Shown piece after piece: positions 5,268-39,816 of a DNA stretch of 60,762 bases. The stretch's first letter is position 1. Every line of letters begins with the position of its first letter. The translations under genes were made by a program, and so were the position numbers. The notes beneath the pieces are model-generated. The model was not told the DNA's origin, searched no databases, and was given only the letters and a program-made list of their open reading frames with translations. Source of the stretch: a virus. Where the stretch lies: the IMG/VR virus record IMGVR_UViG_3300043410_001129, positions 1 to 60,762 of that record. One strand, written 5' to 3'.

Positions 5268-5690
5268 CTATGCCTGCGCGTCGAGCGGGTCGTGGGCGAG
5301 GTCTGGCTCGGATGCTGGCAGGTCTGCTGGCAGGTCCGAAGGGAAAGCATCAGGAATTGCTTGCAATTCCAGATGCTTAGGGCTGGCAGTGCTATCCTTC
5401 GGAGGAATAGCATCGCCGATTAGTTCTCGAAGCTGAGCTTTGCTCATCTTCGAGAGATCATGGTGGTGGTGAACGTGTTGTTCAGCGTAAGACGCTGAGA
5501 TTTCAGGCAAAACTTTTGAGAGTAAAACTCTCGATGCAGCGACTCTTGCCATCGTGTCCTTGCGATTTGGGTCGATTTTGCCTTCGGCAATGTCACCCAA
5601 CGCATCAATCGCGGCATGAGCGCGATGCAAGACCTTGCGCCTGAGTCTGCGCACTTCGTCAGCTGAAAGCTCGACAGACCTCGTGGCCAT
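5268..5690 (-). CDS. terS: Probable terminase small subunit
   Basis: 140 residues from ATG 5690, chosen because GGAG lies 8 nt upstream; the frame is open further upstream but without a good ribosome site. A helical core (RRKVLHRAHAAIDALGDIAEG, then ARVAASRVLLSKVLPE) resembles the small-terminase pattern of helix plus 'AAxxLL' helix. The C-terminal half contains a HHHH run and a repeated DLPADLPA, encoded by a DNA repeat similar to those near the integrase. Small terminases recognise pac/cos DNA and stimulate TerL; the assignment relies mostly on position, first in the late operon. Confidence 0.6.
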   Translation of the reverse strand: MATRSVELSADEVRRLRRKVLHRAHAAIDALGDIAEGKIDPNRKDTMARVAASRVLLSKVLPEISASYAEQHVHHHHDLSKMSKAQLRELIGDAIPPKDSTASPKHLELQAIPDAFPSDLPADLPASEPDLAHDPLDAQA

Positions 5691-5746
5691 CACAAAAACT
5701 CCGTTTTCTACCATCGGCACTTTAGCGTTGGATTTTTTTACACGTC

Positions 5747-5804
5747 GTCCCTGAAAGGGACTGAAGGGAATAAAGGGGAGGCAAATCGGCCAGTCCGATG
5801 CCTC
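5747..5804 (+). promoter_or_regulatory. Two-hairpin leader element, copy A
   Basis: Hairpin 1 is GTCCC-TGAAA-GGGAC (5747-5761), followed directly by TGAAGGGAATA, then hairpin 2: GAGGC (5778-5782) plus ATCGG pairing with CCGAT plus GCCTC (5795-5804) with a 2-nt bulge. The same arrangement recurs at 5835, 6763 and 8410. This copy has no U-run after hairpin 2, so it is not a simple terminator. Copy B begins 30 nt later. Confidence 0.65.
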
Positions 5805-5834
5805 GAAACCCTCTCTCCCACAGACATTGCGAAT

Positions 5835-5880
5835 GTCCCGAAGGGACTGAGGGGAATAGAAGCGAGGCCAATTCGGTCTC
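5835..5880 (+). promoter_or_regulatory. Two-hairpin leader element, copy B
   Basis: Hairpin 1 is GTCCC-GAA-GGGAC (5835-5847), linker TGAGGGGAATA, hairpin 2 GAGGCC-AATTC-GGTCTC (5864-5880, one G-U pair). It ends 25 nt before the ATG of the first early gene. No U-run follows, so regulation at RNA level (translation, processing or antitermination) is more likely than termination for this copy. Confidence 0.65.
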
Positions 5881-5905
5881 AACCAACCCCGAAAGGATTA
5901 CGATC

Positions 5906-6304
5906 ATGCTGAATACGATTCACCCCGTTCTCGTTGCTGAAGGCAACGTTGTGAAGCGCAAAGACGGTTCCACCGTTGCTCGTCCTTTGGCCATCTGCAC
6001 CGAAGGTGGCTTCTGCGTCAAAGTGAAGGGCGACTACGTCGCCGTCGATCCCATCGCTGCCAATCGTGTTTCGGTCTCCGACCGCAAGGTCACATTGGCC
6101 CGATACGCAAAGCTGGCTGACATTCAGCCGAAGGCTGAGAAGGTTCCTGCCAAGCCCGAAGCCAAGCCAGTCGCAAAGCGACTGACCAAGACGGTCAAGC
6201 CGAAGGCTAAGGCCGAAGCGACCGAAGCCCTTGGCTTCAGCAAGCAGTTCGGTATCAGCGAAGCTGATGCTCGCAAAATCCTCGCAATCCTGACTGGCAA
6301 GTGA
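5906..6304 (+). CDS. Hypothetical basic protein with Lys/Ala/Pro linker
   Basis: 132 residues; ATG at 5906 with GAAAGGA upstream. Residues ~1-70 look like a small beta-rich domain (VAEGNVVKRKDGSTVARPLAI, GGFCVKVKGDYVAVDP). Residues ~75-105 are a Lys/Ala/Pro/Glu-rich histone-H1-like linker and the last ~25 residues form a helical segment ending GISEADARKILAILTGK. No known family is recognised. As first gene of the early operon, behind two leader elements, an early host-takeover or DNA-binding role is possible; this is inference. Confidence 0.8.
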   Translation: MLNTIHPVLVAEGNVVKRKDGSTVARPLAICTEGGFCVKVKGDYVAVDPIAANRVSVSDRKVTLARYAKLADIQPKAEKVPAKPEAKPVAKRLTKTVKPKAKAEATEALGFSKQFGISEADARKILAILTGK

Positions 6305-6312
6305 GGTGTGTC

Positions 6313-6501
6313 ATGAGCAATCGCGAAGAACTCACCAATCGCGTCGACCTCCTTCAGGAGGTCGTTCGCACTCTCCGCTCAGATCGCAACTTCTGGCTTC
6401 GCCAGAAAGACTTCAAGCGTGTCGCTGACATACGTCGACGTCTAAAACACGCTGAAGAACGACTGGCGATGTGCCTCCACTACTTGCCAAGCGCAGCCTA
6501 A
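6313..6501 (+). CDS. Small helical hypothetical protein
   Basis: 62 residues; ATG at 6313 with GAGGTG upstream. Charged and probably one long helical hairpin (REELTNRVDLLQEVVRTLRS; RVADIRRRLKHAEERLAMCL). Eight nucleotides follow the preceding gene, and a strong terminator follows. No family recognised. Confidence 0.75.
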   Translation: MSNREELTNRVDLLQEVVRTLRSDRNFWLRQKDFKRVADIRRRLKHAEERLAMCLHYLPSAA

Positions 6502-6508
6502 TCGCATA

Positions 6509-6537
6509 GGGCCACCCTTCGGGGTGGCCCTTTTTTT
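6509..6537 (+). terminator. Rho-independent terminator
   Basis: Perfect 9-bp GC stem GGGCCACCC / GGGTGGCCC with a TTCG tetraloop, followed by seven T residues. Ends transcription of the first two early genes or acts as an attenuator for the genes after it. Confidence 0.93.
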
Positions 6538-6568
6538 CGTTTCCACGTCCCATTACAGGAGCCTAATC

Positions 6569-6658
6569 ATGAGCGAGACTTTGCAGACCATTGCCGAAGG
6601 CATTGCCTTCAGCTGTTTCATGACCATGATCTTTGCCGTGTTCTTCATCGCGTTTTGA
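6569..6658 (+). CDS. 29-residue membrane peptide
   Basis: ATG at 6569, preceded by ACAGGAG. After a short polar start (MSETLQTIAEG) the rest is a single hydrophobic segment (IAFSCFMTMIFAVFFIAF) ending at TGA. Small single-TM peptides are common in phage early regions, but no specific function can be given. Confidence 0.65.
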   Translation: MSETLQTIAEGIAFSCFMTMIFAVFFIAF

Positions 6659-6668
6659 GGTCCACGAC

Positions 6669-6764
6669 ATGATCCACGACGACGACGTGTGGCCTCTCAT
6701 CAAGGTCACGGCTTTCACGACAGCCGTTCTGATGACCCTCATCTATATCGCCTTTACTCGTTAG
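6669..6764 (+). CDS. 31-residue membrane peptide
   Basis: ATG at 6669. It starts with an acidic MIHDDDVWP and continues as a hydrophobic segment (TTAVLMTLIYIAF) ending in TR and TAG. The stop codon overlaps the first base of the leader element copy C. It lies 10 nt after the previous membrane peptide, suggesting a pair. Confidence 0.6.
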   Translation: MIHDDDVWPLIKVTAFTTAVLMTLIYIAFTR

Positions 6765-6822
6765 TCCCCGAAGGGGACTGAAGGGAATAACTGTGCCTCG
6801 CCGATCAACGGCGGGGCTTTTT
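6763..6822 (+). promoter_or_regulatory. Two-hairpin leader element, copy C, with terminator
   Basis: Hairpin 1 AGTCCCC-GAA-GGGGACT (6763-6779), linker GAAGGGAATAA, hairpin 2 GCCTCGCCG-ATCAA-CGGCGGGGC (6795-6817) followed by TTTTT. Here hairpin 2 is a bona fide intrinsic terminator, 28 nt before the next ATG, so the unit has the form of an attenuator. Confidence 0.75.
6795..6822 (+). terminator. Terminator hairpin within element C
   Basis: 9-bp stem (one T-G pair) with ATCAA loop and five T residues; part of the repeated leader unit. Confidence 0.85.
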
Positions 6823-6845
6823 CTGTTACACGAAAGGATATTTCC

Positions 6846-7085
6846 ATGTTCAACGACATCACGGCTCTTCGAGCCATCTCTATTGCCGCTTACGTTTCCA
6901 GCACAATTATGACCTGCGTTGCTGTCCTCGACGACGCATGGCCTCAAGCCAGCTTCTGGGTTCTCACGTTGATCCTCAACGTGTTGATCGACCGCAACTC
7001 GGAGTCAACGACAATCCACCTCGTGATTACAAGCGACGAGCCAGCCACCATCACTGGCTACACTGTCCCGAAGGGTCACGAATAA
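6846..7085 (+). CDS. Small membrane protein
   Basis: 79 residues; CGAAAGGATATTTCC precedes the ATG. Two hydrophobic segments are visible (about residues 8-30, AISIAAYVSSTIMTCVAVL, and 36-50, FWVLTLILNVLI) separated by DDAWPQAS, then a polar tail (SDEPATITGY). No family recognised. The stop codon TAA overlaps the start of the next gene. Confidence 0.75.
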   Translation: MFNDITALRAISIAAYVSSTIMTCVAVLDDAWPQASFWVLTLILNVLIDRNSESTTIHLVITSDEPATITGYTVPKGHE

Positions 7086-7513
7086 TGCAAACCTTCATGC
7101 CCTATGTGACCTTCGCGACGAGTGCCAACTGCCTCGACAACAAGCGTCTCAACAAGCAAATCACCGAGTGTCGCCAGATCATGCGTGCCCTGGCACGCAA
7201 ACGTCTTGGCATGAAAGCAGGGTGGCAAAGCCACCCTGCGGTTCTCATGTGGGAAGGCCACCTCGGTTCGCTCCAAGCGTATCACAACTGTTGCGTTAGA
7301 GCGTGGTGGGACCGTGGCTACAACAGCCACACGATGCTCGCCATTCACGGATTGCACGACGACGACTTGCCGTCGTGGGTCGGAGACCTTCGCCTTCACG
7401 TCTCCCACCAAGCCAATCTGGTTCGCAAAGACCCAGACCACTACGGGCCGCTGTTTCCATACGTCGACCCGTCACTCCCCTACTACTGGCCAACACAAGG
7501 AGAAGCCAAATGA
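7085..7513 (+). CDS. Pyr_excise / MSMEG_6728-type protein
   Basis: 142 residues. It matches the pattern of the MSMEG_6728-type group related to T4 endonuclease V (pyrimidine dimer glycosylase): N-terminal MQTFMPYVTFATSANCLDNK, a basic helix (RLNKQITECRQIMRAL), GWQSHPAVLMWEGHLGSLQAYH, and the C-terminal signature LPSWVGDLRLHVSHQANLVR followed by KDPDHYGPLFPY and a LPYYWP end. T4 endonuclease V cuts at UV-induced cyclobutane dimers; whether this branch does so is not established. The gene overlaps both neighbours by 1-4 nt, typical of translational coupling. Confidence 0.85.
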   Translation: MQTFMPYVTFATSANCLDNKRLNKQITECRQIMRALARKRLGMKAGWQSHPAVLMWEGHLGSLQAYHNCCVRAWWDRGYNSHTMLAIHGLHDDDLPSWVGDLRLHVSHQANLVRKDPDHYGPLFPYVDPSLPYYWPTQGEAK

Positions 7514-7833
7514 ACCACACCATCAAGACTGCCGACGAATTGCGTGACGCCTCTCACGAGTTTGCACGCCTCATTCAGAAATCACTCGAACAGATGGCAC
7601 CAATCTGGAAAGAGCGTGGCTACAGAGACGCCGACGTGTTGAAGGTCAGCACCTCTGCCCTTGGCAGCATGATCGGGATGATGTGCGGCACGACAGGCGT
7701 TGAGGACGAGGCTCATGTTCCAGGACTGATGGATGCCCTTAAGCCACTGGCTATCTCGTCTTACGAGAAAACCATGCTGGTCCTGAGCCTGACCTGCGAA
7801 GAAGAACTCGACGAAGAAACCACTGCCCACTAA
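7510..7833 (+). CDS. Hypothetical protein
   Basis: 107 residues; ATG at 7510 overlaps the previous stop. Mostly helical, with a central segment ADVLKVSTSALGSMIGMMCG and an acidic C-terminus (CEEELDEETTAH). Not recognised. The size and composition resemble the small helical protein at 10520-10810, also an early-region protein with a helical body, but no clear sequence similarity was found. Confidence 0.78.
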   Translation: MNHTIKTADELRDASHEFARLIQKSLEQMAPIWKERGYRDADVLKVSTSALGSMIGMMCGTTGVEDEAHVPGLMDALKPLAISSYEKTMLVLSLTCEEELDEETTAH

Positions 7834-7852
7834 CGCATTAGGAGACATTGCG

Positions 7853-8398
7853 ATGCAAGATATTTGCGACAACTTCGTTACCATCAAACACTCCGACCCC
7901 AAGTTCATTGCGAAAATCGTGAAGGACTTCAAGGATGGCTCGCTATTCGGCGGGCTTTACCCTCGGCCCAAGCATGTTCCCGAAGAACGTGATGCCTCTT
8001 GGAAGATCGGCAACTGGGGAGTCAGCCACGACGTCGGCATCGACCAAAGACTGTCGGGCCAACGCATCAACAGCTACGAGCTGGTCAACCCGAACTATGT
8101 GGCTCTCCGCTTCGAGACCAAGTTCGCACCGCCCATCTCCTATTACGAGAACCTGATGGGAGACTTCGACGCTGAGATCGACGCCATGTTCTTCGCAACA
8201 AGGGCCAAGGACGATCAGGACTACTGCGGCTCATACAACATGGGTCATTACGATGACCTCGACATCGTGAGTCGAACTCACAAGTGGGCCAAGACTCACA
8301 TCCCACCTGAAGTCGAGACGACTCTCGACATTGCCAAGCACTACGCAGACCGTGAGGACCAAGTCGAAGAGCAGATCAACCTGTCCCTCGTCTATTAA
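7853..8398 (+). CDS. Api92-like (ferredoxin-like fold) protein
   Basis: 181 residues; GGAG 8 nt upstream of ATG 7853. The order of motifs recalls the Api92/DUF1281 family found in phages: N-terminal short beta strand (FVTIKHSD), a WKIGNWGVSHDVG block, an aromatic strand VALRFETKFAPPISYYENLM, and a downstream QDYCGSYNMGHYDD segment. The family's function is unknown. It ends 12 nt before leader element D. Confidence 0.6.
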   Translation: MQDICDNFVTIKHSDPKFIAKIVKDFKDGSLFGGLYPRPKHVPEERDASWKIGNWGVSHDVGIDQRLSGQRINSYELVNPNYVALRFETKFAPPISYYENLMGDFDAEIDAMFFATRAKDDQDYCGSYNMGHYDDLDIVSRTHKWAKTHIPPEVETTLDIAKHYADREDQVEEQINLSLVY

Positions 8399-8409
8399 GT
8401 GTATGTGTG

Positions 8410-8467
8410 TCCCCAACGAAGTTGGGGATGAGGGGAATATTGGGGCTGCCAATCGGCGGCCCCTTTT
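8410..8467 (+). promoter_or_regulatory. Two-hairpin leader element, copy D, with terminator
   Basis: Hairpin 1 TCCCCAAC-GAA-GTTGGGGA (8410-8428) keeps the GAA loop while its stem is extended by different bases, i.e. compensatory change. Linker TGAGGGGAATA; hairpin 2 GGGGCTGCC-AATC-GGCGGCCCC (8442-8463) followed by TTTT. It ends 22 nt before the ATG of the AAA+ ATPase gene. Confidence 0.75.
8442..8467 (+). terminator. Terminator hairpin within element D
   Basis: 9-bp GC stem with AATC loop and TTTT; located between the Api92-like gene and the ATPase gene. Confidence 0.82.
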
Positions 8468-8485
8468 CTTTTGGAGGATCAACCG

Positions 8486-10492
8486 ATGCTGACTAACGAC
8501 GAAATCTCCGAGCGACTTTCCGTTGCTCGCAAAGAACCATTCAAGACACGACGGCGAAGCGTCGACTCGATCATTGGCGACATGATCAAGTCCGAACTTC
8601 TGGCGTCGCCACATTATGACGTGTCAAAAGTTGTCACCCACTCCCCGATCTGCGGCACAGGCCCAGGCCAACTCAGCGTTAGGCCGTGGCTGTCGTCTAT
8701 CCTGTTGCAGACCCCGCTTCCCGTAAGGGAAGGGCTGATCGCTCACCACCTGAGCGGCGGCAAGGTGGGAACATCGGTGTTCGACGTCTTGCAAGCCATC
8801 CTTGAACCGTCTAAAGTTGGCGTCACAGACACCTCAACCAAGACGGGCTACCGCTTCGGGTGGCACACGGACTTCAACCAACCTGACACTGAGGCATGGC
8901 TCTGGACCCACCTCGAAGCCAAGCCACTCACACCTATCGCAACTGTTACGGAGACGCCAATGGCATTGACCCCCATCGACAGAGTCATAGACGCCCACGA
9001 CCGAGTGTTTATCTACGGTCGCTCGAATGACATGACTATCGAGCAGAAAATTCTGCTGACTCACGGCATCATCGAATACCTGCGCAACCACGGTCTTCTT
9101 GACGGCGAAGTTCACACGACGAGTGACTTCACCGATGCTCGTTCACTCATCGAGTGCCGTGGCTATGACGAGCCAGACGTTTACGACCGCACTTTCGCAC
9201 CACTCACGGGCCATATCCGCGACGTTGTCGTGGAGGCCATCAAACATTTCACAAAGCACAAGGAGATTTCCATGACCACCATCAGCACCACCTCTGTCGC
9301 CCCCGCCTTCGACCCCACCGCCATGATCAAGATGGTCGAGCCGATGCTCGCCATGGCAACGGGTGGCACGGTCACCACGTTCGACGACGTCAAGTCTCTC
9401 GAGGCTCGAGCAACTGCGCTCGCCAACGAGAACGTCACCCTTCACGCCGACCTGATGGCGGCTCGCAAGGCTGCCGCTAGTGCAGCTGCCACACCAATGG
9501 TGGTCGGTGAGATCAAGCGTGGCGATGAGACGGTCGGCTTCCCGACTGGCAAGCTGGGCATCGCCAAGGCCAAGGATGTATTCAACATCAAGGGCAAGAT
9601 GGCTGAGCGCTTCGACTTCGATGTGCCCATGTTCGAGTGGGATGGCCCGCATCCTTTGGTGCCAAGCGTCGACACGGACTATGTGTTCGAGAAGAAGAAC
9701 CTTGCCCTTGCACTCGATGCGCTTGTGGCTGGCGATAACACATGGGTCTACGGCCACACTGGTTCGGGTAAGACCACGTTCGTCGAGCAGATCGCGGCTC
9801 GATTGGGCTGGCCCCTCATGCGAGTCAACGGTGACTCGGACATCTCGCGCTTCGAGTTGATCGGCAAGACAGACTTCAAGGATGGCGAGACCACGTTCAC
9901 TCCTGGTGCGCTGGTCACAGCGCTCGAGGAGGGATGCCTCCTGCTGTGCGACGAGTTCGATGTGACCCGTAGCGAGACGGCCTATGTCCTCAACCGTATG
10001 CTCGAGATGAAGGGCTTGCTCCTCCTCGAAGATGGCGGTCGGTTCGTTGCGCCTCACCCCATGTTCCGCATGGTTGCGGCATGTAACTCGAGGGGCAACG
10101 GCGACGAGTATGGAATTTACCCTGCGGTTCGCACTCAGAGTGCGGCGACTCGCTCTCGCTTCACCGTGTTCATCGAGCATGACTACCTGAAGGCTGAGCA
10201 GGAACGTGAACTGATCATCGCCAAGACCAACGTCGCCAAAGACATCGCCGATAAGTGGGTGCGCCTCGCCAACGAGGTTCGTGAAGCCTTCAAGAAGGGG
10301 CGCATCCTCGAGGTGGTCTCGCCTCGTGAAGTGCTGGCCGCTTGCACACGTTACCAGCGTCTGACTGTGCGGCTTGGCGATGAGAAGGAGGCGCTCAAGA
10401 TGAGCGTCGAGGCGGCTGTGCTGGCACGTTGCTCGAGTGCTGACCGAGCCGTCGTGGCTGAGATTGTCCAGCGCATCTTCGCAGTATCGTAA
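8486..10492 (+). CDS. MoxR/CobS-like AAA+ ATPase with extra N-terminal region
   Basis: 668 residues; ATG at 8486 with GGAGG upstream. The C-terminal half is a MoxR/CobS-type AAA+ ATPase: Walker A GHTGSGKT at 423-430, Walker B LLLCDEFD with D489/E490, a sensor-1-like MVAACNSRGNGDE and an arginine-finger region AATRSRFTVFI. Residues 1-260 are not recognised. An in-frame ATG at 9272 (residue 263) has its own AAGGAG 6 nt upstream, so a second, shorter ATPase-only product or an ancestral two-gene fusion is likely. MoxR-type ATPases partner with VWA proteins such as the one encoded 330 nt downstream. Residues ~295-320 look coiled-coil (LEARATALANENVTLHADL). Confidence 0.88.
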   Translation: MLTNDEISERLSVARKEPFKTRRRSVDSIIGDMIKSELLASPHYDVSKVVTHSPICGTGPGQLSVRPWLSSILLQTPLPVREGLIAHHLSGGKVGTSVFDVLQAILEPSKVGVTDTSTKTGYRFGWHTDFNQPDTEAWLWTHLEAKPLTPIATVTETPMALTPIDRVIDAHDRVFIYGRSNDMTIEQKILLTHGIIEYLRNHGLLDGEVHTTSDFTDARSLIECRGYDEPDVYDRTFAPLTGHIRDVVVEAIKHFTKHKEISMTTISTTSVAPAFDPTAMIKMVEPMLAMATGGTVTTFDDVKSLEARATALANENVTLHADLMAARKAAASAAATPMVVGEIKRGDETVGFPTGKLGIAKAKDVFNIKGKMAERFDFDVPMFEWDGPHPLVPSVDTDYVFEKKNLALALDALVAGDNTWVYGHTGSGKTTFVEQIAARLGWPLMRVNGDSDISRFELIGKTDFKDGETTFTPGALVTALEEGCLLLCDEFDVTRSETAYVLNRMLEMKGLLLLEDGGRFVAPHPMFRMVAACNSRGNGDEYGIYPAVRTQSAATRSRFTVFIEHDYLKAEQERELIIAKTNVAKDIADKWVRLANEVREAFKKGRILEVVSPREVLAACTRYQRLTVRLGDEKEALKMSVEAAVLARCSSADRAVVAEIVQRIFAVS

Positions 10493-15899: not shown

Positions 15900-16310
15900 A
15901 TGACAGATCACGAGAGTCTGGAGCAGCGGGTGGCGACGCTCGAGGCGCAGATGAGGATGATCTTACGGGAAATGGGAACTGAGAAGCTGGACCGTGACGT
16001 GGTGGCGTCGTTCGCGAGGATGACGCCACGGATGCACGGGGCCATGCAGTGCATACTGAATGGCATAGGCAACAGGGAGATTGCCGAGAGGTTTCATGTG
16101 CAGGAGACGACAGCCAAGGTCTATGTGCGGAGCATCGCCAAGAAGCTGGGGGTGAGGACGCGCAGTGAGATCGTGGCGAAGGCGCTTGCGACGTTTAAGG
16201 CGATGAGTGCCGATGAGTATTTGAGGTTGGCCAAGATCGAGAAGACTTGGTTCGAGGGTGGCGAGAAGTGGAGTGGCAAGGATGACGGAGAATTTTCTGG
16301 AGCTGATTGA
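15900..16310 (+). CDS. LuxR-type HTH protein
   Basis: 136 residues. An N-terminal coiled-coil stretch (LEQRVATLEAQMRMILREM) precedes a LuxR/GerE-type helix-turn-helix at about residues 48-95: MTPRMHGAMQCILNG then NREIAERFHVQETTAKVYVR and KLGVRTRSE. It has no receiver or ligand-binding domain. It is adjacent to and overlaps the integrase gene by 29 nt, so it could control integration or the lytic/lysogenic decision; this is inference. Confidence 0.82.
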   Translation: MTDHESLEQRVATLEAQMRMILREMGTEKLDRDVVASFARMTPRMHGAMQCILNGIGNREIAERFHVQETTAKVYVRSIAKKLGVRTRSEIVAKALATFKAMSADEYLRLAKIEKTWFEGGEKWSGKDDGEFSGAD

Positions 16311-17325: not shown

Positions 17326-17658
17326 AGTATTGTGGATACGTCTTTAGTTGACCGGCCCCTCCCTCAACTGAAGGCTATCGTTTCCTCCTTGTTTGATGAC
17401 TGGCCCGCTTTCGAGCGGGCCTTTTTTTTGTGCCTGAACAACACGCGAACAACGCTGGCAGGTTTGGTGGCAGGTGGCCCTTAGTAAACTGGGATAAACC
17501 GCTGTAACTTTGGTATAAATTGGGGGCAGTGCTGTCTACAACAAGGACGGAATTGGGGCGATTTCCCAACTAACGACGTCAGCCAAGACGTCTGAGGATG
17601 ATGGCGCAGACAACTGAAGACGTTGGGGAAAGACCTGCTGGCAGGAAAAGTGGCAGGT
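17315..17658. repeat. Repeat-rich candidate attP region
   Basis: About 340 bp following the integrase with no gene. An 11-bp direct repeat TACGTCTTTAG occurs at 17315-17325 and 17337-17347, spaced 22 bp apart (two helical turns). A 9-of-10 inverted repeat CTTTAGTTGA / TCAACTGAAG is at 17342-17351 and 17364-17373. Two 22-bp repeats, GCTGGCAGG-N4-GTGGCAGGT, lie at 17454-17475 and 17637-17658, differing only in the 4-bp spacer. Direct repeats flanking a core are typical of integrase arm sites. A terminator sits at 17402-17429 within the region. Confidence 0.6.
17402..17429 (+). terminator. Rho-independent terminator after integrase
   Basis: 8-bp stem GGCCCGCT / AGCGGGCC with a TTCG loop followed by eight T residues; ends the early/integration transcript. 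Confidence 0.95.
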
Positions 17659-29934: not shown

Positions 29935-30211
29935 TTTGAACGTGGTCAAGATCGGCAAGGCCGCACCGGACGATCAAGTGATCGAACAAGCCGAGTTCAT
30001 TTTGGAACAGGCCAAGGCTGGCAACATGAGAAGCCTGTTGTGGGTAAGCGAAAATCTCGACGGCACTTATACCCACGGGATCACTAGGCGGACAGACAGC
30101 TTCAAATGCCTGGCGTATCTCGACAGGTTGCGGCACCGCGTCAACCTGTGGTTGGACGCGGATAGTCATGATCCGATTGATTGGGTGGATGAGGGCGACA
30201 GCGAGGATTAA
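29915..30211 (+). CDS. Hypothetical protein, last gene of replication operon
   Basis: 98 residues from ATG 29915. NVVKIGKAAPDDQVIEQAEF, then a helical NMRSLLWVSENLDG and a basic patch (TDSFKCLAYLDRLRHRVNLW). The acidic C-terminus (DWVDEGDSED) ends in TAA, whose last three bases are shared, on the other strand, with the stop of the giant late gene. Confidence 0.75.
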   Translation: MSSGENSLNVVKIGKAAPDDQVIEQAEFILEQAKAGNMRSLLWVSENLDGTYTHGITRRTDSFKCLAYLDRLRHRVNLWLDADSHDPIDWVDEGDSED

Positions 30212-33200
30212 GACCCGCTGAAGCCACCACCGAAGCCACCACCAAATCCACCACCGAAGCCGCCTCCCTTCGCGTTCATGCGATTGGAGGCGCTACTGTT
30301 TGCGCGTTCCCCCGCCACATAGTTCGTGACGTTCTCGCGGAAGGGCTTCACCTGACCGGCGAACGGGACACGAGAGGCCACGTCACGGACTGCTGAGCGT
30401 TCGCGGTAGTTGGTCCCGTCTTCACCAATCAGGGCATGTTCGATGCCGCCAGCCGTCTCGAAGGCAGACTGGGCGAGACCCCATGTCGGGCCAAGCACGA
30501 AGGACGCTGCGCGGTTCATGCCATACTGGCCGTTGTCGAGAGACTCGCCGACCTGGAAGAGCATGTCGGAGAACAGGCCGAAGCCGCCCATGGACATGAA
30601 GCCGTCGATATACCAGCCGAGGAAGGTGTCGAGGTCGACGTTCGTGCCCATGACGTTGACGGTTCCGGGCGTCTTGCCCTTGAAGCCAAACTGCTCGGCG
30701 ATCTTCTGGTAGGAGCGGACGCGAGGTGCGAACTCGCCCGTTCCCTTCTCGTCACCACCACGACCCTGGATCACGTCCTTCATGTAGATGGCGCCCATGC
30801 CGGAGCCAGCTCCGAGGGAGAGCATCATCGCGAGCGGTGCGACGTTGCCTTCCTTGGCTTCCTTCAGAACCGTGCCACCAAGTTTGGACATCATCAGGGG
30901 GAACGACTTCAGCTGCCAGGCGAGCATACCCCACGGAGTCTGCGCCCAGACTGGGACGTCGTTCGGGTTCGGCGTGAAGATCGACTCGTTGGCGAACTTG
31001 ATGATCGCCGCACGGACGTCGTCGTTGTGCTGGACCTGCGTCAGATCGCCGAACGACTTGGCAGGATCGGTCGCGTAGTCACCGAGGCCGTAGTGATCCA
31101 GGAAGCGCTTGGCCTGCCGGAAGCTACGGTTCTGGGAGACCGAGTCTGCGCGGTAGTTCTGCTGCGCCTTCTCGATCATTGCCTGCATCGCGTAGTAGCC
31201 GTGGATGCCAGCGATCTCGCGCTGCATGTTGGTCCATGGGGTCAGAAGCGATGCGTTGAAGAACGCATTGGTGCGGCGACCGTCGAACACACCAGCGGCC
31301 TGGCCACCGTAGAGGGAGGCGTAGCGCTCGTGGATCAGGTTCTCGATGGTGACGCCAATGTTGCGGATGGCGTCCCGGTAGGTTGGGTCGGTCGCGTAAG
31401 ACTTCAGCGCCTTGTAGGTCGCCTTCATCGAGCCGGAGCGGATCGCGGGCATGGACAAGTCCGAGATCGAGGTCAGCACGGTGAAGGGCAGGAGGGTTGC
31501 GCTGTTGAAGTTGCGCAGACCACGGCTCACCGCATAGGCGCCTTCCTGACCAACGCCGGTGTAGACCCGCTTGTTCTGGATGGCGCGGAAGGTGGCCTGC
31601 ATGTGGTCGAGTTCCGAGCGGGTGATGCCGTTCGGCATGTCTGCCATAGCCTGAGCGATGGCCATTGCCCGCTTCTCGAAGGTCTTGCCGCCGTCGACGT
31701 CGGTGATGCCGGACTGCTTTCGGACAGACATGATCGCGTCGAAGGCGTCCTGTGCGGTGCCGCCTTCTGCCAGACGCTTGCGAGCTGCATTGATGGCTGT
31801 GCCTGCCTGCATCTCGTTCATGGGGATCATGACCGTTTCATGCGTGATCTCGCGCATCACCTCGTTCTCTGGGCCAATGGCCTTCGAGGTGTTGGTCAGG
31901 ATTTTCCGGGTGTTGAGCAGGGTCCGACCAGCCGAGTCGCCGAAGGTGGCGACCTGGACGTAGTCGTAATAGCCGTGGTTGTTGTGACCGAACTGCTTGG
32001 CGAAGGCGATGCGCTTCTCGGCAGTGTCGGCATACTTGGTCACGATGGCCGTGATGTCGCTGTTCAGGAACGGCTCCAACTCGCGCAGAGCTTCGCGATC
32101 ACGATCAAGGCGGATCATGCGGCTCATTTCGTGATCCATGACGGGGGCACGAGAGCCACCGGCAACAGGTGCGTGAACGACGCCGTCGTCATCGGTCAGG
32201 CGGGCAAACACCTTCTCGGCGCGGGACACGGCTTCTGCACGAGAGAGAGGCTCGCGCATCTCGTCTTTCAGGGCGTCACGCTGGAAGTGATTGGCCAGAC
32301 CTTCGATGACACCAGACGGATTGCGGTGCATCGCTTCCACGTCCCAGTGCTGCGGGAAATAGTCGCCGATGGTGCCGACGCGGATGTTGGCGTCGTTCAA
32401 GAGGCGCTCGCGATAGTGGCTGAAGAAGCCCTTGAGTGCTTCTGCGGCCTGCTGTTCCTCGGGGGCCAAGCGGCGGATGGCTTCGTCGCCACGACGCAGG
32501 GCAGAGGCGATGCGCTTGTGGGAGTCTGGCGTGATGTGCTGCTGGTGCGTGATGCCGACGGTGAGGTCTGACACCTTGCGGAGCCAATCACCCAGTGCGC
32601 CCTTGGCGTCTGGCAGATTGTGGAGCTGCTGGACGATGGGGTTCAGGTGCTTCGAGGTGTCAGCGTGGTGGCGCTCGTAGTAGCCGGTGCCATGCTCGGG
32701 TGCGATCCAGTCGGCGAGCCAACGGGCGCCAGCGAACTCGCGCAGACGATCTGAGTTGGAGCGCAGTTGCACGGGAGCCGAGAACTCCTTGAGACCTTCG
32801 GCTGCCTTCACGTCCTTGCGGGCGATCTTGCGCAGGAGGTCTGCCATCTTGGAGGAGCCACCGCCTGCCTCGACCCACGAGGACATGACGTTGCCAAAGC
32901 GACTGGCGCTGAAGGGTTCGTCGCTGTTCATGGCAGCGTCGAACAAGGCGCCGTTCAACGACATCTTGGGAGTGTCGCCGTTCGGGATCACAGACTTGTA
33001 GAAGCCATCCGAGGAGCGGCTGTATTCCGTGGCCTCGAGCATGTGCTTGACCTGGGCCGGGGTCTCGAAGGCGACGATGATGTCATGCGGAACACCAGCG
33101 CCGTTGATCGGGTGGGTGTCCGTGGTGCGCAGACCGTCATAGCCAAGTTCACGCAGGAGGTCGGTGATCATGTCCTCTGCGGTCTTGGTGTAGGTGATCT

Positions 33201-36200
33201 CGCCGCCATACATGCGGTTGCCGACGCCGGTGACGTCCGAGATTTCCTGGATGAGCGCATCATAGAGCTGGAGGCCAGTCGTTCTGACGAAGCCGTTCTC
33301 GTCGATGTCGCCCATGATCGAGCGTTCGAAGCCGGGATCGGTCCAGCCCTTCTCGACCATCTTGTCGATCAGCTGCTGGATGTGGTGATCAGCCAGGCCG
33401 TCCACGTCCTGGTGGCCGATGATGTGGTCGGTTCCAGTGCGGAAGTCGAAGACCTTCTCGGCGTTCATCGAGATCGGGAAGGTGCGGGAGTCGAGCTTGT
33501 ATTTGCCGAGGTCCGCGTTGAGGCGGGCGTATTCGGACTCGAGTTCCTTCACCTGCTTCTTGACCCAGGTGGTCTCAGCCTTGTTGACGAGGCCAGTGCC
33601 GATGTCGACAGACTTCATTCCCTTGGACTGCTCGAGCCAACCGGCCATGTCGCTCAGCTGAGAGACGATGTCGTCGCGCTGACGCATCATCGACTTCACG
33701 TTGGCCAGCTCGTTGTCGCTGAGTTTCAGCGAGCGCAGCTCGAAGTCGAGGTTGCGTGAAGCCGTGCTGGTGCCCTGACGGGCGAACTCGATGGCGTGCT
33801 TGAACGACTCAGTGGTGTAGAAGCCGTATCCGAAAGAGCCAGCTCCGTTGGGGGTGAACATCACGACGGTCTCACCGTCGCGCATCAGACCGCCAGCGGG
33901 TGTGCCGTGCCAGAGCTGAATGATCTCACCGTCCTGAGTGTAGAAGGAGTGGTGGTTCTTCAGACGAGCGAGCTGCTCGGGGTCCATCTGGCGCAGGACT
34001 TTGCGCAGGTCTGTCTCCAGGCTCATCATCGGAGCGCCGGAGAGGATCGACTCGAGGCCAATGTCACGGGTTGCGCTGGTGGTGCGACCGAACATGTCGC
34101 CATACCAAGTGAGCTGGCGCATCACCTGGCGCATGTCCTTGTTGCCGATCAGGCGGTTGAACAGGTAGGCGAGGGCTTCCTTGACATTGTCGAAGATGCG
34201 CTCGATGCCAGTCTTCAGGCGGATACCTTCGAGGGAGCCTGAGACGTGCAGTTCCATCAGGTCGCCACGGGCAACGCGCTCGGCCAGGTGCATCGCGATG
34301 GACTGGGCGATGTATTCCTCGGCCTGCTTTTCGAAGGAGAGGTCGGCGTATTCATTGCGCACCGTTGCGGCGATCTTGTCCTTCGCGATGGCGAAGGCGT
34401 CGACCATGATCTTGCGATCCTCTTCGGACAGCATCGTGCGGGAGAGCAAGTGACCGGCCTCGTGGACCACGTCGAACGGATTGGCGTTCTCACGCAGACC
34501 GATGGCCAGGCGACGGACGGTCGAACGCAGTTCCTTGAAGACCGGATCGCTCAGGTCTGCGAACACGGCGTTGGCGTTCGCGGGGATTTCCTTGCCTGCC
34601 ATCTTGTAGAGCGTGCCGATGGGCAGAACTTCCGCTTCGCCGACGTGCATCTTCGCTTCGTCGTTCAGCAGGTTCAGGACGCGGTAGGCCAAGGTGCGGG
34701 CGTTGCGCTCGACCTCGGGGTTGTTGTGGTTGATCGGGCGGAGCAGCGCCTTCCACGACTCGGGTGCGTTGGCGGGGATGCCAACTTCGAGAGTCGTGCC
34801 GTCGCGGTGCGTGATTTCTGTTTCGACTGCCTTGCCAATGCGGGACTCGTAGAGGTCCAGCAGGGAGCCAAGGTCGCGGCGCTGGGAGAGTGCGGCTGAA
34901 TAGAGGTCAGCCTGCGCACGATCTGCGGATGCGATTGCCTTGTGCAGACGCGAACGCAGCTCTGCGTCGGGCAGGGCTGCGGTCTCGGGGTCGATCTTGA
35001 CGTTCGGGGTTTCGAACTTGGCGCGATAGCGGTCGGCCAGCTCGTTGGCCAGCTCGATGCCACGCACCGTGCTGGGGCCTTCCTGACGGAACTGCGCCAG
35101 GAGGTCCATGCCGGAGAGCTTGGCAGGAGACATACTGTCGACAGCGGTCGCACGCTTAGCGCCAGACTCGGCACGCGAGACAGTGCGTTCTGCCTTCTCC
35201 TTGGGAGTGGCAGGCTTGTTGACGGCGCGTTCGGCGAGGACGTCCGCCTTGGCCTGTTCGGTCTTTGCAGCGCGGCGTGCCTTGTCGAGGCCAGCGTAGC
35301 GGCGAGACGCTTCACTGCCTGTGCGCTCTGGCATAAGCGGGTTCTTCGGCAGGATTTTGTAACCAGTCTGACGCTGATAGGCGCTCTCGAGCAGGTTGAT
35401 GTAATCAGCGTAGGCGTTCGAGAGTTTGTTGCCGACGCGGTAGGCTTCCATCATGAACTCTGGATTATCGAGTCCGCCCGCTGCGATGTGGGTCATGTCG
35501 ATAATCTGCATCCCGGAGATGCGGGACTCGGCCTGAGCAGTGATGGGGTCAGTGATCAGGTTGCCAAGCTCCATGTCGCGGTATTGCTCGGCGATCAGCT
35601 TGTCGAGTTCGGTCTCGGCGGCACCGGTCTTGTAGGCTTGGTAGAACTCGTGGGCCTCGCGGATCGCGGTGCGGATTTGGCGCAAGCGGTCGGTCACGGG
35701 TTCGTGGCCAGCTGCACGCGGGAAGAGCCAACTCGTGTTGTTGTATTTGGTGAGGACGAACATGAGCTGCTGCGCGTCGTTGATCGCCTCGAGGGCGGCA
35801 ACGGGGTCGGCAGAGTTCAGGCCACGGTCGAGTTCCTCGGCACGCTGAGCGACACGGCGCATCTGGCCTTGGGTCAGCTCGGCGTTCTTCAGCTTCTTGC
35901 CGGTGAGTCCAGCTTCACGCGGCTGGATGTAATCAACGGCCCAGCGGTTAGCGATGTCCTCGTCGGGGATGATCTTCTGGAAGAGGTGGACGATCTCGCC
36001 GGGGGCTTGCCACGGGTCTTTGAAAGCCTTGATGACGTTGGCGAACCGTTCAGCGATGCCACCCCAGAGGCCGGAGTGCGTGCGGAACGGAGTCACGTCC
36101 TCGCGGTCAACGAACGACATGAACAGGTTGGCGAAGAGTTCCTGTGGATTGTCGAAGACGCCTGGAACAACGTCGCGACCCTTGAGGAACTTGGAGAGTT

Positions 36201-39200
36201 TGGCCGCGTCGAACTCGCCGGTGTCCTTGTAGAACTGGCGGGTGAAGTCCAGGAAGTCTGCGCGGTCCTTGAAGGACAGTAGGTTGAAGTAGCCCCAGTG
36301 GCCAAGTTCGTGAGCGAAGACGCTGAAGGACGGGATCGACTGGACGAGCTTGCGTGCCTCGGGGTTGACGCGCATTGCGTTGGTCAGCGGGTCGTAGTTA
36401 CCCGCAAGCCCAGCCTCTGCCCCGCTACGGATGATGGGAGCGCGGTCGAAGGCCACGTTCAGACGGCGCAGAGCGTTCTCAGCTGCGGTGAAGGCGGCAG
36501 GGTTGTTGTCGAAGAGAGCCTTGAGCTGGGTGACGGCTTCCTTGCGGGACTCCATCGGGAGCAGCATCGTGTCGGGGAAGACTTCGGCCAGCTTCTGGTA
36601 GTGAGCGATGCGGGTCTCGAGGTCCGTGATGGTGGCAGGACGAGTGCCTTCCATCTGGATGAAGTCTTTCCAGAGGTCGCCATAGGTCGTGGTCTTGCCG
36701 TCGAAGTCGACGGTCTTCGACATCATGTCGTCGAGTTTGGCCGGACCTTCGATGGTGGACTTCGGCGCCTCGGTGCCGTTGGTGAACGCACGCTTTTCGG
36801 CAGCCACGTTGTTGCGGGCTTCAGCGGGGATGAAACCCTTTTCCCACTCAGCGTCGGACTTACCTTGCAGGATTTTATAGTAGTCCTCGAGGGTGCGGTC
36901 GGCACGCAGCTGGTTGGGGTTGAGCGGACGCACTTCGACGATGTCGCCCTTGGCGTTGCGACGCACGAGTGCGGGCAACTGGTTCTTGGGCAGGTCAGGT
37001 GCGGGCAGATCGGGGGTCGGAGGAAGGGTCTTACCCTTGAACTCGGCCAGCTTCTGGAGCAGGGCAGCGTTGCCACCTTCGCGCTTTGCGGCGCGAAGCG
37101 CGTCGATCTGTTCCTTGCTCAGGCCAGGAGTGGTGGACTCGGCGATTGCAGTTTCGATCTTGGCGATAGGTGCGGTCGGAGCGACGGCTTTCTTTTCGGC
37201 AGCGCGTGCTTCGGCACCGGCTGCGATGGATTTGCTCAGCTCTTCGTGCTTCGCCTTCAGGGTGTCCATCTTCTTGATGGTGCCCTTGTAGGCGTTGAAC
37301 GCATCCCTGCCGGTCTCGGAAAGGGCAGACGCTCCCTTGGGGTTGCGCATCAGCGCAATCACAGCGTCCATGGAGCCAAGTTCATTGGCGAGGATGCCGA
37401 CGTTCAGGCGGCGGAAGTTGTCGAGGGACTGGATGTCTTTCTCGTAATTGGCGAGAGTCGTCTGCTGGCCTGCGATACGGAGGCGTTCGACTTCCTGGGC
37501 AACGCCTGCGGCGCCTTCAGGTTTTGCAGCGGGCGCTTCACCAGTCTTGGCGCGTTCGGCAGAAGCCAATGCGTCGGCGATGGCCTGCGGGTCGTCCTTC
37601 AGGGAGCGGACGGCGCTGCTGGTCTGGGTAGTGTCGAACAGAGGGGCGACGCTGCGCTCAGACTTGAGGACGTCCATGCCAGGCTTGCCAAGCACGGAGG
37701 CTTGGGCCAGCTCGCCGGATGCTTTGGTGACACCGGTTTCGTGGCGCTTGACGATTTCTGAGATGGTGTCGAACAGGCTTTCGGCGAGTCTGACTTTGTC
37801 AGCTGACTCCAAGAGAGCGTCGCCGATCTTCGAAGCGAAGGTTGGGACAACCTTTTCGATCTCGGCAAGGACGGCATTTTTGGCATCGGTAGGCAGACCA
37901 GACGCCAAATCGTTCACAGTCGCACGAGCGGCCTGGAGGATGCGCGACTCGTTGTCGGCATACATCTTGAAGATGCCGTCGTTGCTGTCGGTGTTCGACG
38001 AGCGCAGGAGGTCTTCGATCAGCGCACGCTCTTCGTCGCTGGAACCAAAATGTTCGGCGACGCGGTTCGCTGTTTCTTTTGCCTGTGCGGCGTTCTTGGC
38101 TTCTTCGATTCTGGCCTTGAGTTCCTTGACGCCTTCGTCAGTGCGCCAGTCGATGCCGTCCTTCTTGAGGAGTCGGCCTGCGAGCTGCGGAGTCTGACCG
38201 GTGGCTTCCTGGTATTGCTGCCAGGTGGCGGCACGCTCTTCGTTGGTGAAGAGCTGCTTGGGAGTTTCGCCGTCGCCACGCATTGGGGTGGTGGCAGACG
38301 CGGCTTCGGTGTCGATGCCTTCGGGGGCGAGGTTCTCGCGGCGACCAGCGGCCAAGAGTTCGCTGTTACCGCCTGCCGGGACGTCGCCTTCGGTGGGGAA
38401 GCGGTCAGTGGCAGTGCGCTCTGGATCGAAGATGCCAGCCTCGGACTGGCTGTTCGGGGTGACTTCGCCGATCTTCTGCTGGCCTGCACCGACGTTCTCG
38501 CCGGGAGTGGCGAGGTCTGAGCGGGCCTGGTTGTCTTCGAGGCGAGGTGCGTTGGCGCGTTCGGAGCGTGCGCGTTCAGCGGAGGAGACAACGTCGGCGA
38601 CGGTCTGGTCGTTGGCGACAGACTGAAGGCCAAGGCTGTTGATCTGACGGTCGATCTCGAGGGCGGCGTTGCGCTGCTCGCGTGCCTTGGCGTCCTTGCC
38701 TTCGGCTGCGGCTGCGCGAGCCGCTTCTTCAGCGGCTTGCTTTTTGGCCAGCAGGTCTTCCGTCTGCTGGATGATCTGCATCTGCTCTTCGAGGACGCGC
38801 TTGCGCTCGGCAGCGATGGCTTCATCCTCGGGGTCGTGGAAGTCCTTACGGACGAAACGCTCGTCGAGGTTTTTCAGTTCGTCGTTGATGTTCTTGAGAG
38901 CTTCGGCCTGCGGCGACTGGAAGACGGAGTCTGCGCGTGCAGCCGTCTGGGCAGCAACGGTCGCTTCCTGGGCGGCCTGCTCTGCGCCAGGGAGAGTGTC
39001 CTTGACGCCAATCTTCTCGACCCACTGCGGGCCGTGCGCTTCAACGAGTGCGTCGTAAGCGGCCTTATAGGCGGCTGGGTCTTTTGCTTCGACTGCGGAT
39101 GCGAGGTCGCGACCGAGGCGGGAGCCACGCAGGGCTTCAGGGATCGCCATGGCTCCGCCGATGGTGCCACCGAGAACACCGCCGATGAGTGCGCCACCGA

Positions 39201-39816
39201 CTGCCTCGCTGAGGCTGACGCTGTCGCGCATACCGGCAGTCTTCTGGGTCTGCTGGATGGCGAGGTCTTGACCAAACTGGATGCCTGCGTTGAGGGCGGC
39301 TTCCTTGGCGGCAGTCGAGGTGATGGCGCTGACAGCTGGGCGTGCGGCGCCCTGAATGGCGGCTTCGGCGGCAACCTTGCCTGCACCAAAGCCAAGCAGG
39401 TTGACGGGGTCTGCGACGCCTGCGGCGATGTATTGCGGGATGGCAGCAGCTGCGCCGCGTCCGCCTTCTTCATAGAAGTTCGGGAGCTTTTCGTAGGCAG
39501 CGGCAATGCGGGAGTAGCGCTGAAGCTGGTCAGGCCCCATGCCAAGCACGTCTGCCAGGTCTTTACCGACCGAGATCGTGTTGGTGTTGCGCCAGGTGCG
39601 GTCACCGTAGAAGTAGTCGATGGCTTCCTGATCGGAGCCAAACGTCTTGCCGTCGCGACCGTAGTAGAAGTTCTTGATGTCGCGGATGAACCGGCCATCA
39701 CTCAGGATTTGAGTGGGAGCGAGGTGGTCAAGGTAGTTGGATTGGAGGTTCTGATTGGGGGAAGTGCTGAGCGAACCAGCGTCTTCAGCTTGCTTAATGT
39801 AATAATCGAGAGACAT
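30208..39816 (-). CDS. Giant polyvalent internal virion/ejection protein
   Basis: 3202 residues. Order of visible parts: N-terminal region (IKNFYYGRDGKTFGSDQEAI) with a Gly/Ala-rich, membrane-like stretch ~residues 205-230 (GGALIGGVLGGTIGGAMAI); long Ala/Glu-rich coiled coils (~300-1000); a zinc metallopeptidase-like motif HELGH (1169-1173) with NPQELFANLF (E1226); a second HEAGH (1785-1789) with downstream EEYIA; an ADP-ribosyltransferase-like block with LWHGTPAGG (H1970) and GYGFYTTESF; a C-terminal region with hydrophobic helices and GFG repeats. This is the layout of phage polyvalent proteins injected with DNA (LPD-type C-terminus). It closes the late operon. Confidence 0.9.
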   Translation of the reverse strand: MSLDYYIKQAEDAGSLSTSPNQNLQSNYLDHLAPTQILSDGRFIRDIKNFYYGRDGKTFGSDQEAIDYFYGDRTWRNTNTISVGKDLADVLGMGPDQLQRYSRIAAAYEKLPNFYEEGGRGAAAAIPQYIAAGVADPVNLLGFGAGKVAAEAAIQGAARPAVSAITSTAAKEAALNAGIQFGQDLAIQQTQKTAGMRDSVSLSEAVGGALIGGVLGGTIGGAMAIPEALRGSRLGRDLASAVEAKDPAAYKAAYDALVEAHGPQWVEKIGVKDTLPGAEQAAQEATVAAQTAARADSVFQSPQAEALKNINDELKNLDERFVRKDFHDPEDEAIAAERKRVLEEQMQIIQQTEDLLAKKQAAEEAARAAAAEGKDAKAREQRNAALEIDRQINSLGLQSVANDQTVADVVSSAERARSERANAPRLEDNQARSDLATPGENVGAGQQKIGEVTPNSQSEAGIFDPERTATDRFPTEGDVPAGGNSELLAAGRRENLAPEGIDTEAASATTPMRGDGETPKQLFTNEERAATWQQYQEATGQTPQLAGRLLKKDGIDWRTDEGVKELKARIEEAKNAAQAKETANRVAEHFGSSDEERALIEDLLRSSNTDSNDGIFKMYADNESRILQAARATVNDLASGLPTDAKNAVLAEIEKVVPTFASKIGDALLESADKVRLAESLFDTISEIVKRHETGVTKASGELAQASVLGKPGMDVLKSERSVAPLFDTTQTSSAVRSLKDDPQAIADALASAERAKTGEAPAAKPEGAAGVAQEVERLRIAGQQTTLANYEKDIQSLDNFRRLNVGILANELGSMDAVIALMRNPKGASALSETGRDAFNAYKGTIKKMDTLKAKHEELSKSIAAGAEARAAEKKAVAPTAPIAKIETAIAESTTPGLSKEQIDALRAAKREGGNAALLQKLAEFKGKTLPPTPDLPAPDLPKNQLPALVRRNAKGDIVEVRPLNPNQLRADRTLEDYYKILQGKSDAEWEKGFIPAEARNNVAAEKRAFTNGTEAPKSTIEGPAKLDDMMSKTVDFDGKTTTYGDLWKDFIQMEGTRPATITDLETRIAHYQKLAEVFPDTMLLPMESRKEAVTQLKALFDNNPAAFTAAENALRRLNVAFDRAPIIRSGAEAGLAGNYDPLTNAMRVNPEARKLVQSIPSFSVFAHELGHWGYFNLLSFKDRADFLDFTRQFYKDTGEFDAAKLSKFLKGRDVVPGVFDNPQELFANLFMSFVDREDVTPFRTHSGLWGGIAERFANVIKAFKDPWQAPGEIVHLFQKIIPDEDIANRWAVDYIQPREAGLTGKKLKNAELTQGQMRRVAQRAEELDRGLNSADPVAALEAINDAQQLMFVLTKYNNTSWLFPRAAGHEPVTDRLRQIRTAIREAHEFYQAYKTGAAETELDKLIAEQYRDMELGNLITDPITAQAESRISGMQIIDMTHIAAGGLDNPEFMMEAYRVGNKLSNAYADYINLLESAYQRQTGYKILPKNPLMPERTGSEASRRYAGLDKARRAAKTEQAKADVLAERAVNKPATPKEKAERTVSRAESGAKRATAVDSMSPAKLSGMDLLAQFRQEGPSTVRGIELANELADRYRAKFETPNVKIDPETAALPDAELRSRLHKAIASADRAQADLYSAALSQRRDLGSLLDLYESRIGKAVETEITHRDGTTLEVGIPANAPESWKALLRPINHNNPEVERNARTLAYRVLNLLNDEAKMHVGEAEVLPIGTLYKMAGKEIPANANAVFADLSDPVFKELRSTVRRLAIGLRENANPFDVVHEAGHLLSRTMLSEEDRKIMVDAFAIAKDKIAATVRNEYADLSFEKQAEEYIAQSIAMHLAERVARGDLMELHVSGSLEGIRLKTGIERIFDNVKEALAYLFNRLIGNKDMRQVMRQLTWYGDMFGRTTSATRDIGLESILSGAPMMSLETDLRKVLRQMDPEQLARLKNHHSFYTQDGEIIQLWHGTPAGGLMRDGETVVMFTPNGAGSFGYGFYTTESFKHAIEFARQGTSTASRNLDFELRSLKLSDNELANVKSMMRQRDDIVSQLSDMAGWLEQSKGMKSVDIGTGLVNKAETTWVKKQVKELESEYARLNADLGKYKLDSRTFPISMNAEKVFDFRTGTDHIIGHQDVDGLADHHIQQLIDKMVEKGWTDPGFERSIMGDIDENGFVRTTGLQLYDALIQEISDVTGVGNRMYGGEITYTKTAEDMITDLLRELGYDGLRTTDTHPINGAGVPHDIIVAFETPAQVKHMLEATEYSRSSDGFYKSVIPNGDTPKMSLNGALFDAAMNSDEPFSASRFGNVMSSWVEAGGGSSKMADLLRKIARKDVKAAEGLKEFSAPVQLRSNSDRLREFAGARWLADWIAPEHGTGYYERHHADTSKHLNPIVQQLHNLPDAKGALGDWLRKVSDLTVGITHQQHITPDSHKRIASALRRGDEAIRRLAPEEQQAAEALKGFFSHYRERLLNDANIRVGTIGDYFPQHWDVEAMHRNPSGVIEGLANHFQRDALKDEMREPLSRAEAVSRAEKVFARLTDDDGVVHAPVAGGSRAPVMDHEMSRMIRLDRDREALRELEPFLNSDITAIVTKYADTAEKRIAFAKQFGHNNHGYYDYVQVATFGDSAGRTLLNTRKILTNTSKAIGPENEVMREITHETVMIPMNEMQAGTAINAARKRLAEGGTAQDAFDAIMSVRKQSGITDVDGGKTFEKRAMAIAQAMADMPNGITRSELDHMQATFRAIQNKRVYTGVGQEGAYAVSRGLRNFNSATLLPFTVLTSISDLSMPAIRSGSMKATYKALKSYATDPTYRDAIRNIGVTIENLIHERYASLYGGQAAGVFDGRRTNAFFNASLLTPWTNMQREIAGIHGYYAMQAMIEKAQQNYRADSVSQNRSFRQAKRFLDHYGLGDYATDPAKSFGDLTQVQHNDDVRAAIIKFANESIFTPNPNDVPVWAQTPWGMLAWQLKSFPLMMSKLGGTVLKEAKEGNVAPLAMMLSLGAGSGMGAIYMKDVIQGRGGDEKGTGEFAPRVRSYQKIAEQFGFKGKTPGTVNVMGTNVDLDTFLGWYIDGFMSMGGFGLFSDMLFQVGESLDNGQYGMNRAASFVLGPTWGLAQSAFETAGGIEHALIGEDGTNYRERSAVRDVASRVPFAGQVKPFRENVTNYVAGERANSSASNRMNAKGGGFGGGFGGGFGGGFSGS

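Follow-up and report, generated by a model that had tools for sequence, protein, structure and literature searches.

A repeated hairpin leader of phage early operons and its possible role in antitermination

What does a phage gain by placing the same pair of RNA hairpins four times along a single early operon? The question is raised by the IMG/VR virus record IMGVR_UViG_3300043410_001129, whose 60,762 nucleotides were analysed at full length and are called the window here. Between positions 5747 and 8467 its plus strand carries four copies, A to D, of an element composed of a short hairpin (hairpin 1), a nearly constant linker, and a second hairpin (hairpin 2). The observation is sound; the mechanism offered for it is a proposal. 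The element may be a cis-acting RNA antitermination site of the phage early region, of a kind not described before, a reading that we favour tentatively and with a little less than even confidence.

To our knowledge, the timing of early gene expression in marine Roseobacter-group phages is essentially undescribed. The paper on Roseobacter phage CRP-810, the closest named relative of the window, mentions no hairpin, promoter, or terminator (PMC11288001). If the proposal is true, this repeated and covarying leader, placed ahead of terminators, would add a new case of early-gene control by RNA, and the element would supply Rfam with a family and this phage group with a marker for early operons. 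Copies in a prophage of Poseidonocella sp. HB161398, a strain that has been sequenced, make the antitermination reading testable.

Four copies with a common architecture

Hairpin 1 of copy A lies at 5747–5761 (GTCCCTGAAAGGGAC, to be read as GTCCCT GAA AGGGAC), followed by the linker TGAAGGGAATA at 5762–5772 and by hairpin 2 at 5778–5804, in which the second stem of the element is interrupted. In copy B, hairpin 1 at 5835–5847 (GTCCCGAAGGGAC, or GTCCC GAA GGGAC) is joined by the linker TGAGGGGAATA at 5848–5858 to hairpin 2 at 5864–5880. Copy C has hairpin 1 at 6763–6779 (AGTCCCCGAAGGGGACT, or AGTCCCC GAA GGGGACT), the linker TGAAGGGAATA again at 6779–6789, and hairpin 2 at 6795–6822; copy D has hairpin 1 at 8410–8428 (TCCCCAACGAAGTTGGGGA, which is TCCCCAAC GAA GTTGGGGA), the linker TGAGGGGAATA at 8429–8439, and hairpin 2 at 8442–8467. 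Hairpin 2 is an intrinsic terminator with a U-run in C (terminator 6795–6817) and D (8442–8463), and is without a U-run in A and B. The loop of hairpin 1 is a GAA triloop in all four copies.

A preliminary description of the locus, made from the sequence alone, had placed the four copies at exactly these positions, and it was right that B, C, and D end 25, 28, and 22 nucleotides before the ATG codons at 5906, 6846, and 8486, the last belonging to a cobS-like gene, and that a terminator-like stem with a U-run is found in hairpin 2 of C and D but not of A and B. Two of its details need amendment. The stem lengths that it gave for hairpin 1 (5, 5, 7, and 8 bp) hold for B, C, and D, whereas the stem of A has 6 bp and is reduced to 5 only if TGAAA is taken as the loop. 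The sequence GCCAATCGG, said to form the top of hairpin 2, is loosely common to A, B, and D, but C differs.

Exact matches to the linker TGARGGGAATA, which the same description called almost invariant, occur at these four places only in the whole window, all on the plus strand; when one mismatch is allowed there are six matches, against 0.69 expected. A descriptor for a hairpin with a GAA or AAA loop and then a second hairpin finds four matches in the early region, three of the copies and one site at 6124, compared with a mean of 0.017 in Markov-randomised sequence; copy A escapes the descriptor owing to its interrupted second stem. RNA folding recovers both hairpins in each of the four copies. 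Relative to shuffled sequences, C and D fold much better (z scores of −4.2 and −4.5) and A and B slightly better (−1.7 and −1.1).

Comparison of copies points to selection on the structure of the RNA, as the preliminary description had supposed. In an alignment of 30 copies, both partners have changed in at least one place for six of the seven base pairs of hairpin 1, and the covariation score is 0.564, against 0.202 for shuffled alignments and 0.10–0.18 for slid registers. A control set of 24 leaders was defined by position alone, from a neighbouring motif and the following gene. A hairpin with an AA-bearing loop is present in 18 of these, where dinucleotide shuffles predict 0.8, and TT-bearing loops number 2, with 1.0 expected. 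An A-rich loop on the coding strand speaks for a structure formed in RNA rather than for a duplex operator. When RNAalifold is applied to the position-anchored cobS leaders, hairpin 1 is recovered, with one pair changing on both sides (in four of the nine sequences); hairpin 2 is not recovered, because its position and length vary. Since the terminator character of hairpin 2 also depends on lineage, the conserved part of the element, on these alignments, is hairpin 1 together with its 3′ flank.

Occurrence in related phages and a prophage

The relatives of the window span a range of distances. CRP-810 shares a similar gene order, with 50% identity in TerL and 36% in the CobS-like protein. A sister phage (L094/L008) is much closer, its TerL being 78% identical to that of the window, and a CRP-810-like prophage region of Poseidonocella sp. 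HB161398 (L117; NZ_VATA01000004.1, 4420–22021) has a TerL of 46% identity. Alignment of whole elements with MAFFT left the stems out of register, so the covariance model (CM, R1) was restricted to hairpin 1 and the linker of the 30 copies. In the window it matches A (5741–5771), B (5828–5858), and C (6759–6788), and misses D with its 8-bp stem.

In 105 phage loci (about 1.13 Mb) the CM has 71 matches, 39 in 21 loci and 32 in 84 further loci, counts in which some phages are represented by two loci and numerous matches are training copies; all 71 lie on the early coding strand. CRP-810 contains exactly three, and these are the leaders of gp01, gp04, and cobS. Among 80 loci from bacterial genomes (1.1 Mb), which were outside the training set, the best four matches all fall in the Poseidonocella prophage, on its early strand. 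The shortness of the model keeps the E-values modest, between 3e-5 and 0.5, and stronger evidence comes from the strand bias and positions of the matches. With up to one mismatch, the core of the prophage copies, AGTCCGAAGGACCTTA, occurs five times in the 8.1-Mb Poseidonocella assembly, four of them in the prophage contig, and a backward control occurs nowhere. The fifth copy is found on another contig, upstream of a gene for 159 residues.

The copies occupy equivalent places from one phage to the next. Counterparts of copy D stand upstream of cobS in CRP-810, in the sister phage, in most of the cobS loci examined, and in the Poseidonocella prophage; in the window this gene, encoding a CobS-like AAA ATPase, spans 8486–10492 on the plus strand. 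The A/B pair is the counterpart of the leader of early gene 1 in relatives. The sister phage has a tandem pair spaced 90 nucleotides apart (88 in the window) as well as a D copy, and another relative, L010, also has a tandem pair, at 88 nucleotides. Sequence details change around this constant plan. The sister phage retains the linker TGAGGGGAATA while its loop has gone from GAA to AAA in all three copies; the CRP-810 elements read GTCCC-GAA-GGGAC (before gp01 a weaker CCC-GAA-GGG), with a different linker that begins ACTTC and then a second hairpin. Across the relatives the element is ahead of the same two to four early genes. The preliminary description had staked its interpretation on further copies in related phages; these exist, and the element, as judged from its distribution, is a family-wide 5′ leader rather than a quirk of a single genome.

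Terminators, promoters, and possible modes of action

Terminators recur around the element. In the window, a strong intrinsic terminator follows genes 1 and 2 (6508–6531, plus strand), and the next ATG, at 6569, is 37 nucleotides past its stem. A strong terminator with a 9–14-bp stem and a T-run follows early gene 1, or genes 1 and 2, in 20 of the 24 loci examined, where chance would provide 0.15 terminators per 4.5 kb. The next gene begins 25–55 nucleotides past this terminator in 16 of 19 cases, a gap that leaves little or no room for a promoter; with so little room, the downstream early genes seem to depend on read-through. Closer still, a terminator directly follows the element and is itself followed by an ATG in copies C and D of the window and in the D copy of the sister phage. 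In the Poseidonocella prophage, a strong terminator and, past it, an ATG come after three of the four copies, which are all internal and include that of cobS.

A second clue comes from the way the linkers change. Mean identity between linkers is 0.63–0.69 within genomes and 0.43–0.45 between genomes at the same position. This greater likeness within genomes suggests that the copies of one phage share a trans-acting factor; gene conversion or recent duplication could be an alternative source of the pattern.

The same observations bear on a simpler idea, that of a self-contained attenuator without an antitermination factor, in which hairpin 2 would terminate partially and hairpin 1 would be a passive spacer or a partner in alternative pairing. 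Copies C and D in the window do fold into a hairpin with a U-run, the GGGAA of the linker is able to pair with the U-run region, and an arrangement with a partial terminator is also present after the capsid gene. The idea is improbable, because it does not account for hairpin 1 and the linker being the most conserved parts or for the concerted change of loop and linker within genomes, and A, B, and most CRP-type copies have no terminator. Two other candidates were examined and rejected. Leader peptides were considered for the D copy of the sister phage and for L096, L099, and L017, where start codons 3′ of hairpin 1 open frames that cross hairpin 2; they were dropped because A and B in the window have no ATG, GTG, or TTG there and the peptides lack conservation. 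The 5′ arm could instead pair with a second G-run of the linker in the window, L010, L048, and L057, but this alternative is absent from CRP-type copies and so is not general.

At the cobS copy, relatives have a sigma70-type promoter, TTGAC-N17/18-TTATACA, ahead of hairpin 1, which would then fall at roughly +20 to +40, the start site being inferred from the −10 element; the hairpins are therefore probably transcribed. A sigma70-type early promoter was also sought in the window and was not found. The preliminary description had allowed that transcription might start inside the elements and leave hairpin 1 out; in relatives, the sequence at the cobS copy contradicts this.

The promoter evidence also bears on the idea that hairpin 1, like the early promoters of coliphage N4, is formed by single-stranded DNA and serves a virion RNA polymerase as its promoter. 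C(GAA)G belongs to the stable GNA-type DNA triloops, the copies precede genes, the phage encodes a giant virion protein of 3202 residues, and no early promoter was found in the window. The idea is nevertheless very improbable and was rejected. The N4 hairpin is on the template strand (PMC4496689), while the purine loop here is on the coding strand; the 3202-residue protein resembles internal virion protein D, with no match to a virion RNA polymerase; relatives have the sigma70-type promoter upstream of the element; and in C and D the terminator would fall about 13 nucleotides past the start site.

The antitermination reading draws these strands together. A site at the head of the early operon, repeated before terminators, an apparent need for read-through, and concerted change within genomes are best explained by antitermination. 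In the proposed mechanism, the nascent hairpin and its flank would be recognised during transcription by a phage factor, a host factor, or RNA polymerase itself; the polymerase so engaged would read through the terminator next to the element as well as the strong one that follows gene 1, and early genes would thereby be switched on in order. Antitermination could act processively, like that of nut and put, or be confined to each terminator. In C, D, and the copies equivalent to them, hairpin 2 would be the terminator under control; in the other copies it would be a second stem of the leader. A bolder form of the proposal, which we think unlikely, is that the element defines a new class of processive antitermination in marine alphaproteobacterial phages: a minimal hairpin-plus-tail site, repeated and co-evolving with a phage-specific factor, possibly the product of gene 1, and unrelated to lambda N/nut and HK022 put.

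Several points weigh against antitermination. The copies used for the covariation score were picked in part for possessing a stem. In CRP-810-type phages, no clear terminator comes immediately after the internal copies. No antiterminator protein has been identified, and early gene 1 (5906–6304, plus strand; a basic protein of 132 residues rich in Lys, Ala, and Pro) matches no known family or fold in structure prediction and PDB fold searches that covered the window protein and the CRP-type gene 1 family. Furthermore, the major capsid gene, in the late operon, is followed by a strong terminator (49854–49828, minus strand) that leaves no space for a promoter before the next start, 17 nucleotides on, and no copy of the element is present there; terminators within operons thus need not imply antitermination. 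The capsid gene of CRP-810 is likewise followed by a terminator (41220–41191), the gap to the next start being 14–17 nucleotides across the two phages. Finally, all copies are near a start codon, which fits a role in translation or mRNA stability equally well.

That role forms the main rival: hairpins 1 and 2, close to the 5′ end of selected early cistrons or in the intergenic spacer ahead of them, would be bound by an RNA-binding protein of phage or host, or would block decay, and would act as a 5′ untranslated region (5′UTR) element to set the expression of gp01, gp04, and cobS. A ribosome-binding site and an ATG follow every copy at a short distance; some copies come after promoters (at cobS in CRP-type phages) and others lie within operons, a few nucleotides past a stop codon; and in most relatives hairpin 2 is not a terminator. 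We consider the 5′UTR explanation possible but rather doubtful. The Shine-Dalgarno sequences in the window are sequestered by neither hairpin 1 nor hairpin 2, the close terminators (C and D in the window, D in the sister phage, and three Poseidonocella copies) are left unexplained, and a generic stabiliser has no need of genome-specific linkers.

Other features of the genome deserve mention. The terminal 127 bases of the 60.8-kb record are identical at both ends, and the window is therefore probably a complete genome whose assembly ran past its own end. Late genes, including those for terminase and portal, run leftward; the early operon runs rightward from about 5.75 kb to a terminator at 17402–17421. 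The 3202-residue virion protein (30208–39816, minus strand) corresponds to three consecutive CRP-810 genes, gp34–gp36, and may be an ejection protein that has been fused in one phage or split in the other; the N-terminal match is to internal virion protein D of Pelagibacter phages, and towards the C-terminus the protein matches structural proteins of KPP25-type Pseudomonas phages.

In CRP-type phages a dyad, GGTGTA..TATACACACC, extends over the spacer and −10 region of the sigma70-type cobS promoter (L005 1696–1750; L096–L106) and is possibly an operator. A bipartite motif, GGACGAC-N18-20-TAAAG, precedes late leftward genes of the window at 5750–5722, 22013, and 49882 (minus strand), three occurrences where 0.24 would be expected per strand. 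It is also present in CRP-810 and in many relatives, and is probably a late promoter for the family; the occurrence at 5750 shares bases with the 5′ arm of hairpin A. The gene at 15900–16310, counterpart of the CRP-810 'LuxR-like' gene, has a match to phrog_3282 'sigma factor' (6e-7) and a weak one to sigma-70 region 4, and its product is a candidate reader of the late motif.

Comparison with known systems

The preliminary description knew of no RNA family with this shape, and no Rfam family reaches its gathering threshold in the window; a permissive scan of 5650–8550 gave only matches far below threshold. Where the defining structural features of HK022 put and lambda nut were open to testing by sequence, the element lacks them. 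Put has two adjacent bulged stem-loops with no notable linker, and the stems of all copies here are short and perfect. The boxA core GCTCTT is absent from every copy region of the window, where the best matches to CGCTCTTTA reach 5–7 of 9 positions. Nor is there a GNRA-like pentaloop as in boxB: the loops are mostly GAA, AAA, UAAA, and CAAA, and only copy A can be read as having a TGAAA pentaloop.

Among more distant analogues, the early hairpin promoters of coliphage N4 have a short stem and a GNA-type triloop and stand ahead of early genes, but they are template-strand DNA elements used by a virion RNA polymerase (PMC4496689), whereas the element is on the coding strand in an RNA context and no such polymerase was found. 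In the outline available for LoaP of Bacillus, a short leader RNA hairpin recruits an antitermination factor; the hosts differ, and a scan of early proteins turned up no NusG paralogue.

The likeness to lambda N/nut is closer. In both systems a short hairpin whose loop is rich in purines lies close to where an early operon begins, the site sequences are specific to the phage, and the first gene, which is small and basic, has a strong terminator after it. Gene 1 occupies the position of lambda N, being small, basic, and before the first terminator, and recalls it in this respect; no N-like identity is claimed, since N carries an arginine-rich motif, whereas the gene 1 product, although basic, resembles no known family or fold. 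Unlike nut, the element has a GAA or AAA triloop in place of the boxB pentaloop, and no N homologue was found.

HK022 put suppresses terminators without a phage protein, and its action is blocked by mutations in the zinc-binding domain of the RNA polymerase β′ subunit. It comprises about 70 nucleotides that form two adjacent bulged stem-loops in early transcripts (PMC9378689). The preliminary description had suggested a family of attenuators or put-like antitermination sites. Antitermination is indeed the best supported reading, but 'put-like' should be taken as an analogy only, the single-nucleotide junction of put being absent. The long bulged stems of put are closely packed and conserved in sequence, whereas the stems of the element are short, plain, and variable, its hairpins are about 7–30 nucleotides apart, and its 2–5 copies all face one direction. 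A location downstream of an early promoter, as for put, is seen at cobS in CRP-type phages, and in the window the promoter was not found. Both elements nonetheless consist of two stem-loops, put being present near promoters in early transcripts and in more than one copy per genome; put is needed for passage of downstream terminators (PMC9378689), and the same is proposed for the element described here.

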